Shown here: piece after piece, positions 2,807 to 2,925 of the stretch
How positions within the stretch are numbered: the first letter of the stretch is position 1
How the letters are laid out: each line of letters starts with the position of its first letter
Origin: Brachyspira aalborgi
GTDB taxonomy: Bacteria; Spirochaetota; Brachyspiria; Brachyspirales; Brachyspiraceae
Assembly: GCF_008016455.1 (NCBI RefSeq)
Contig: NZ_SAXU01000001.1
Location: 2,128,423 to 2,192,422 of the forward strand
Length of the DNA: 64,000 nt
Reading direction: 5' to 3'
Translations under genes and position numbers: made by a program
Notes under the pieces: generated by a model
Database searches by the model: none
What the model saw: only the letters and a program-made list of their open reading frames with translations
What the model was told of the DNA's origin: nothing

Positions 2807-2925
2807 ATTGACGATTGACGATTGACGATTGACGATTGACGATTGACGATTGACGATTGACGATTGACGATTGACGATTGACGATTGACGATTGACGATT
2901 GACGATTGACGATTGACGATTGACG
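2807..2925. repeat. Tandem array, 17 perfect copies of a 7-bp unit
   Basis: The unit ATTGACG is repeated 17 times without interruption over 119 bases. It lies between the start of the GT-C membrane protein gene (minus strand) and the cheX-like gene (plus strand). The frames through the array are open only because of the repeat, so I do not call a gene here. Copy number is likely to vary by slipped-strand mispairing. Confidence 0.95.

Follow-up and report, generated by a model that had tools for sequence, protein, structure and literature searches.

The 64,000-nucleotide stretch of Brachyspira aalborgi DNA considered here (the window, from contig NZ_SAXU01000001.1) carries a perfect array of the heptanucleotide ATTGACG in front of a minus-strand gene for a GT-C-type membrane glycosyltransferase-like protein. 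We consider it likely that this array is a slippage-prone element within a translated leader open reading frame (ORF), and that it couples leader translation to the GT-C gene in a phase-variable manner set by copy number modulo 3, a reading drawn from sequence. The array is one of an estimated 100 or so short-repeat arrays in this genome, the lengths of which probably switch surface genes on and off through a shift of reading frame. The anatomy of the locus, its frames, the genome-wide statistics and the variability of such arrays at the level of the genus are established, and are presented below together with the mechanism that they suggest.

The heptanucleotide array and its leader ORF

The features on which the argument rests are the following (window coordinates).

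2807..2926, minus strand: perfect heptanucleotide array, ATTGACG on the plus strand and CGTCAAT in leader sense, stop-free in sense and with TGA stops on the plus strand.
694..2700, minus strand: GT-C-type membrane glycosyltransferase-like gene, 668 aa, 11 predicted transmembrane (TM) segments, invariant D36-E37, no recognizable Shine-Dalgarno sequence.
2967..2994 (read 2994-2967), minus strand: sigma-70-like promoter TTGATA-N16-TATAAT facing the GT-C gene, 11/12 consensus match.
2703..2960, minus strand: leader ORF of 85 codons, MILVVYNILLTLV(NRQSSIV)n..., its ATG (2960) located 6 nt past the −10 box in leaderless geometry.
2706..2806, minus strand: leader spacer after the array; copy number modulo 3 decides whether the frame leaving the array meets its stop at 103, 21 or 2 nt from the GT-C ATG.

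Tandem Repeats Finder (TRF) places the array at 2807-2926 with period 7, 17.1 copies and 100% matches, and direct reading of the sequence yields 17 full units plus one base. The array lies between divergent genes, 106 bp from the ATG of the minus-strand GT-C gene (694-2700) and 268 bp from the true ATG (3195) of a plus-strand CheX gene, and the initial annotation, which had reported 17 perfect units before the GT-C gene in this setting, is correct on this point. Third-order Markov sequences modeled on the sampled stretches (244 kb) were free of arrays with 20 bp or more and 4 copies or more at any period from 1 to 12, and chance is therefore excluded as the origin of the array at 2807-2926. 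The recent expansion that the initial annotation read from the perfect copies may well have occurred, and we retain it at that strength. A dimer of the ATTGACG unit is absent elsewhere in this genome and from 25 other genomes of the genus.

The GT-C-facing promoter sits outside and upstream of the array, which is thus positioned between promoter and GT-C start codon and, consequently, inside the predicted GT-C transcript. The end of the −10 box is 40 nt away from the array, and the repeats overlap neither the −10 nor the −35 box. From the ATG at 2960 the leader frame is open through the whole array and, in the 17-copy phase, terminates at TAA (2705-2703), 2 nt before the GT-C ATG (2700). Stop codons are absent from the array in every sense frame, so that a ribosome could always cross it, and the repeat peptide is identical in all frames. 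The unit length of 7 is not divisible by 3, and the frame in which the array is left therefore depends on copy number modulo 3: with 18 copies the leader is predicted to stop 21 nt before the GT-C gene, and with 16 copies 3 nt past the array, at 103 nt before the GT-C ATG. The region upstream of the GT-C gene (TATAAACGATTATTAAATATG) holds no recognizable Shine-Dalgarno sequence, and RNA folding of the leader is no better than that of shuffled sequences (z −0.74).

The minus-strand gene at 694-2700 likely encodes a GT-C glycosyltransferase. Hydropathy gives 11 TM segments, and D36-E37, a candidate for the acidic motif sought in the first loop, is invariant across seven homologues. The 668-aa protein has no Pfam match; its structure model, which is of low confidence (predicted local distance difference test, pLDDT, 55), finds GT-C enzymes as best matches in the Protein Data Bank (E 0.008 and weaker), these weak matches being STT3, PglB, DPY19 and PMT.

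From the sequence we infer that the leader is translated, that ribosomes reinitiate at the GT-C start, that this array slips and that 17 copies correspond to ON, in the following scheme. Transcription from the sigma-70-like promoter would include the array, and translation would start at the leader ATG just past the −10 box. In the 17-copy phase, leader termination 2 nt before the GT-C ATG would hand ribosomes to that start codon by termination-reinitiation (ON), the GT-C gene, with no clear Shine-Dalgarno sequence of its own, having its start codon fed by leader-terminating ribosomes. In the other two phases the leader would end about 21 or 103 nt earlier and the GT-C gene would be poorly translated (OFF), with the untranslated part of the leader possibly open to transcription termination. 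Replication slippage would alter the copy number, and cells would thereby switch reversibly. Loci at which the frame is fused to the gene might show the opposite effect or produce an extended protein.

Short-repeat arrays across the genome and the genus

Half of the genome (1.264 Mb) was sampled for exact arrays with 4 or more copies and a length of 20 bp or more, which returned 41 arrays of period 5, eight of period 7, one of period 6, two of period 2 and none of any other period. Extrapolation from the 49 arrays of 5- and 7-bp units in this half leads to an estimate of about 100 such perfect arrays in the whole genome. Leaders hold most of the arrays, and a smaller number are found close to the 3' ends of coding genes. 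A sigma-70-like promoter matching the consensus at 11-12 of 12 positions is found just upstream in 41/56 arrays (own genome and relatives), as against 20/600 random places. The promoter-driven set was picked by a promoter score of at least 10/12 with orientation taken from the better-scoring strand, two arrays of ambiguous orientation or position being excluded, and first-order Markov sequences served as spacer controls. All 39 promoter-driven arrays of this genome are stop-free in sense and 23 of them in antisense, with some 59-68% expected of random units. A leader ATG, counted when it lies 5-11 nt past the −10 box or is preceded by a Shine-Dalgarno sequence and is open into the array, is present in 31 of the 39 (control mean 3.0, maximum 8). 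As to what follows the array, 35 loci have a gene on the same strand no more than 320 bp away; at 31 of them an exit frame ends at or is fused to the start of that gene (control mean 5.9, maximum 12), and leader and gene share the exact 4-nt overlap ATGA in 11 loci (control mean 1.07, maximum 4). The genes behind these leaders encode lipoproteins, outer-membrane barrels, glycosyltransferases and GT-C proteins. In the current phase 8 loci are coupled or fused and 22 are not, close to the one third expected of random phases.

The window itself contains a second array of the same class, with its leader and gene.

23678..23743, minus strand: perfect array (GAGCT/CAGCT) x13.2.
23464..23790 (read 23790-23464), minus strand: leader ORF of this array, overlapping the downstream gene by 4 nt (ATGA).
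22370..23467, minus strand: lipoprotein-like gene downstream, in ATGA overlap with the leader ORF.

Length differences are seen both within this genome and between relatives. Two paralogous leaders in this genome with identical upstream flanks hold 27 and 42 bp of ACAGT, respectively. Arrays are present at 7 of the 8 GT-C homologous loci examined in the genus, including that of a paralogue in this genome, and none is present at the G010 locus; the units at these other arrays are ACAAC, CACAA, AAAC, CAACA and TACAA. At the GT-C homologue loci with readable promoter and gene start, one exit frame overlaps the gene by ATGA; at G022 the contig ends in the array, and at G003 the downstream side is masked. 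The near-identical G002 and G016 loci carry 51 and 57 bp of CAACA and are in different phases, with small indels beside the arrays as well. Pentamer arrays on the B. hyodysenteriae rfb plasmid (L349-L357) differ between strains in exact 5-bp steps, one of them measuring 35, 35, 45, 55, 60 and 65 bp across strains; several of these polymorphic arrays lie near the 3' ends of glycan genes, and the plasmid arrays as a group fall outside the leader class. An rfbF protein encoded in the genome under study finds its best plasmid match in B. hyodysenteriae (73%), in keeping with its assignment to Brachyspira. Arrays of this kind are thus variable in the genus by comparison of sequences, a statement that concerns the B. 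hyodysenteriae plasmids and not the window's own array. Copy-number variation acting on a surface-glycan-type gene, as the initial annotation envisaged, is plausible on these grounds, given that same-class arrays vary between congener strains and that arrays accompany the GT-C family throughout the genus.

Taking these data together, we judge it fairly probable, at somewhat lower confidence than the coupling proposed for the GT-C locus, that Brachyspira possesses a phasome of up to about 100 loci built mainly on one design. In this design a promoter, often with a leaderless start, would drive a leader ORF whose 5- or 7-bp array is stop-free, and in one of three phases the leader stop would meet the start of the next gene (or the frame would be fused to it). 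Through translational coupling, slippage would then switch lipoproteins, outer-membrane barrels and glycosyltransferases.

Two further observations concern repeats of other kinds. A second class of pentamer arrays, of up to 52 copies, is situated toward the 3' ends of coding genes, among them several of glycan type, where it would vary C-termini (L116:13884-14144, L112:4974, L117:4906/9309/11734, L076:4931 and L131:12758). Window positions 26709-27121 hold an imperfect 69/138-bp tandem repeat resembling units that code for leucine-rich repeats.

Promoter orientation and rival explanations

On the other side of the array, two features face away from the GT-C gene.

3088..3116, plus strand: promoter-like TTGATA-N17-TATAAT before CheX, 11/12 match.
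3195..3671, plus strand: CheX-family gene, the divergent neighbor (PF13690, 1.2e-17), conserved in the genus.

Over window positions 1-3200 synteny with the relatives (L043-L065) is broken: CheX has another divergent neighbor in the relatives examined, and the GT-C gene and array beside CheX are specific to the locus of this genome. A TTTCCGATAAT motif close upstream of CheX is common to many relatives that have no such array there, and TCCGATAA (window 3138-3145), also upstream of CheX, is conserved in many genomes of the genus (relatives among L043-L063); we take the latter to resemble a sigma-28 (flagellar) −10. Control of CheX by the array is unlikely, since CheX has its own promoter-like site and the TTTCCGATAAT motif is kept in array-free relatives.

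The initial annotation had proposed that array length tunes a promoter through many staggered −35 elements, each unit containing TTGAC. The core indeed recurs every 7 bp, with a −10-like TATAAA 16 nt from the last unit, yet all 17 copies within the array are on the plus strand, the sole inverted copy (GTCAA, 2929) being at the right edge, and because of this the supposed −35 cores face CheX and not the GT-C gene. No more than the final one or two units come near the −10-like hexamer, and the last alone is well placed for it (TTGACG-N16-TATAAA, facing CheX), at a spacing and register that copy number leaves unaffected; moreover, the better GT-C promoter lies outside the array. We reject the model of staggered −35 elements on orientation and register, and regard it as hardly credible. 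At the same edge of the array (window 2920-2933) the last unit and its inverted copy form a small palindrome, TTGACG-AG-CGTCAA.

More serious is a graded effect of the 5' leader as at hmw1A of Haemophilus influenzae, in which the array would lie in the 5' untranslated RNA made from a distal promoter and every extra repeat would reduce mRNA or protein, the reading frame playing no part. At hmw1A and hmw2A the −10 box of P2 and the −35 box of P1 are overlapped by the heptanucleotide repeats, whose lengthening lowers expression (PMC8262952, PMC2651432). The order promoter, 7-bp array and gene some 100 bp on is the same here, and 17 heptamers fall within the hmw range, but such an effect leaves unexplained that sense strands are stop-free at 39/39 arrays, that leader starts are found at 31/39 and that an exit frame reaches the gene start at 31/35, and we deem it rather unlikely. 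That the arrays are neutral simple-sequence repeats, slipping more in transcribed leaders and having no regulatory role, would fit the random look of phases across loci and the ease with which the sequence is evidently made, ATTGACG arrays occurring at more than 100 places in many phyla: at least 117 stretches from genomes of many phyla carry exact (ATTGACG)x4 (L172-L288), several genomes with many loci. In these other phyla an exit frame touches a gene in 66/77 cases, which is uninformative on coupling because a stop-free frame of at least 250 aa is present at 60/117 places. Neutrality is nonetheless improbable in Brachyspira, where the geometry of promoter, ATG, array and gene is kept with different units across species and frame openness exceeds that of controls. 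Finally, the leader peptides themselves could be the product, as small peptides of the membrane whose repeat does not depend on frame. Short hydrophobic stretches are encoded by several of the open exit frames, and the array reads as one and the same peptide whichever frame is used, but units, N-termini and tails vary by locus and it is the junction with the next gene that is kept, which renders this option very improbable.

Several findings weigh against phase-variable coupling of leader and gene, our preferred explanation. The copy number of 17 in the window is read from a single assembly of the species, a search for related loci among genome contigs, in a collection that may lack near genomes, having returned nothing. 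The junction here is a 2-nt gap, unlike the commoner ATGA overlap. Genome-wide, a touching exit frame is missing at 4/35 loci, most other downstream genes have a good Shine-Dalgarno sequence and might need no coupling for their translation, and at 8 loci the open frame continues through the gene as a fusion, an arrangement that might impede initiation instead of aiding it and makes the ON phase uncertain.

Relation to known systems and significance

Haemophilus, Neisseria and Campylobacter are well known for phase variation driven by slippage. By analogy, the GT-C locus would work like a translational contingency locus with the heptamer-leader anatomy of hmw1A, minus the overlap of repeats and promoter boxes. 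With hmw1A/hmw2A it shares a perfect 7-bp array of similar copy number, about 100 bp before a surface gene and transcribed in the 5' leader, and it differs in that the array lies 40 nt past the −10 box, inside a leader ORF with frame-dependent junctions (PMC8262952, PMC2651432). As in the tetranucleotide lipopolysaccharide genes and the pentanucleotide hsdM of H. influenzae, perfect non-triplet repeats follow a start codon and copy number determines the frame; in those loci the repeat is in the gene itself, whereas the repeats described here are for the most part carried by a distinct leader ORF meeting the start codon of the gene (PMC2651432). The TAACTGA heptamers of Beggiatoaceae and other bacteria likewise form many intergenic arrays before genes with a proposed translational role, but consist of one fixed unit, mostly in 2-6 copies close to start codons (PMC4679880), while the units described here differ by locus, are stop-free in sense and reside in a promoter-driven leader ORF. 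Xanthomonas and Nostoc have abundant intergenic heptamer arrays of variable length, composed of quadruplex-forming G-rich units for which the accessible part of the source describes no tie to a leader ORF (PMC4692102). Within Brachyspira, the variable-number tandem repeat (VNTR) loci used in multiple-locus VNTR analysis (MLVA) of B. hyodysenteriae are variable tandem repeats in the same genus, treated as typing markers, with neither leader architecture nor switching described in the portion consulted (PMC5763801). A literature search, with subscription papers mostly outside its reach, returned no report of repeat-driven phase variation in Brachyspira and no match for leader-ORF coupling with repeats.

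If correct, our proposal would give a spirochaete genome a large set of contingency loci. These would be unusual in where the repeats lie, a distinct leader ORF to which the gene is coupled, and in their units, 5 and 7 bp long and stop-free in sense. A single assembly would then display one phase only. The locus would also provide a simple test system for leader-to-gene translational coupling with copy number as the dial, and the set as a whole would offer an explanation of how lipoproteins and surface glycans could be varied in a gut spirochaete.
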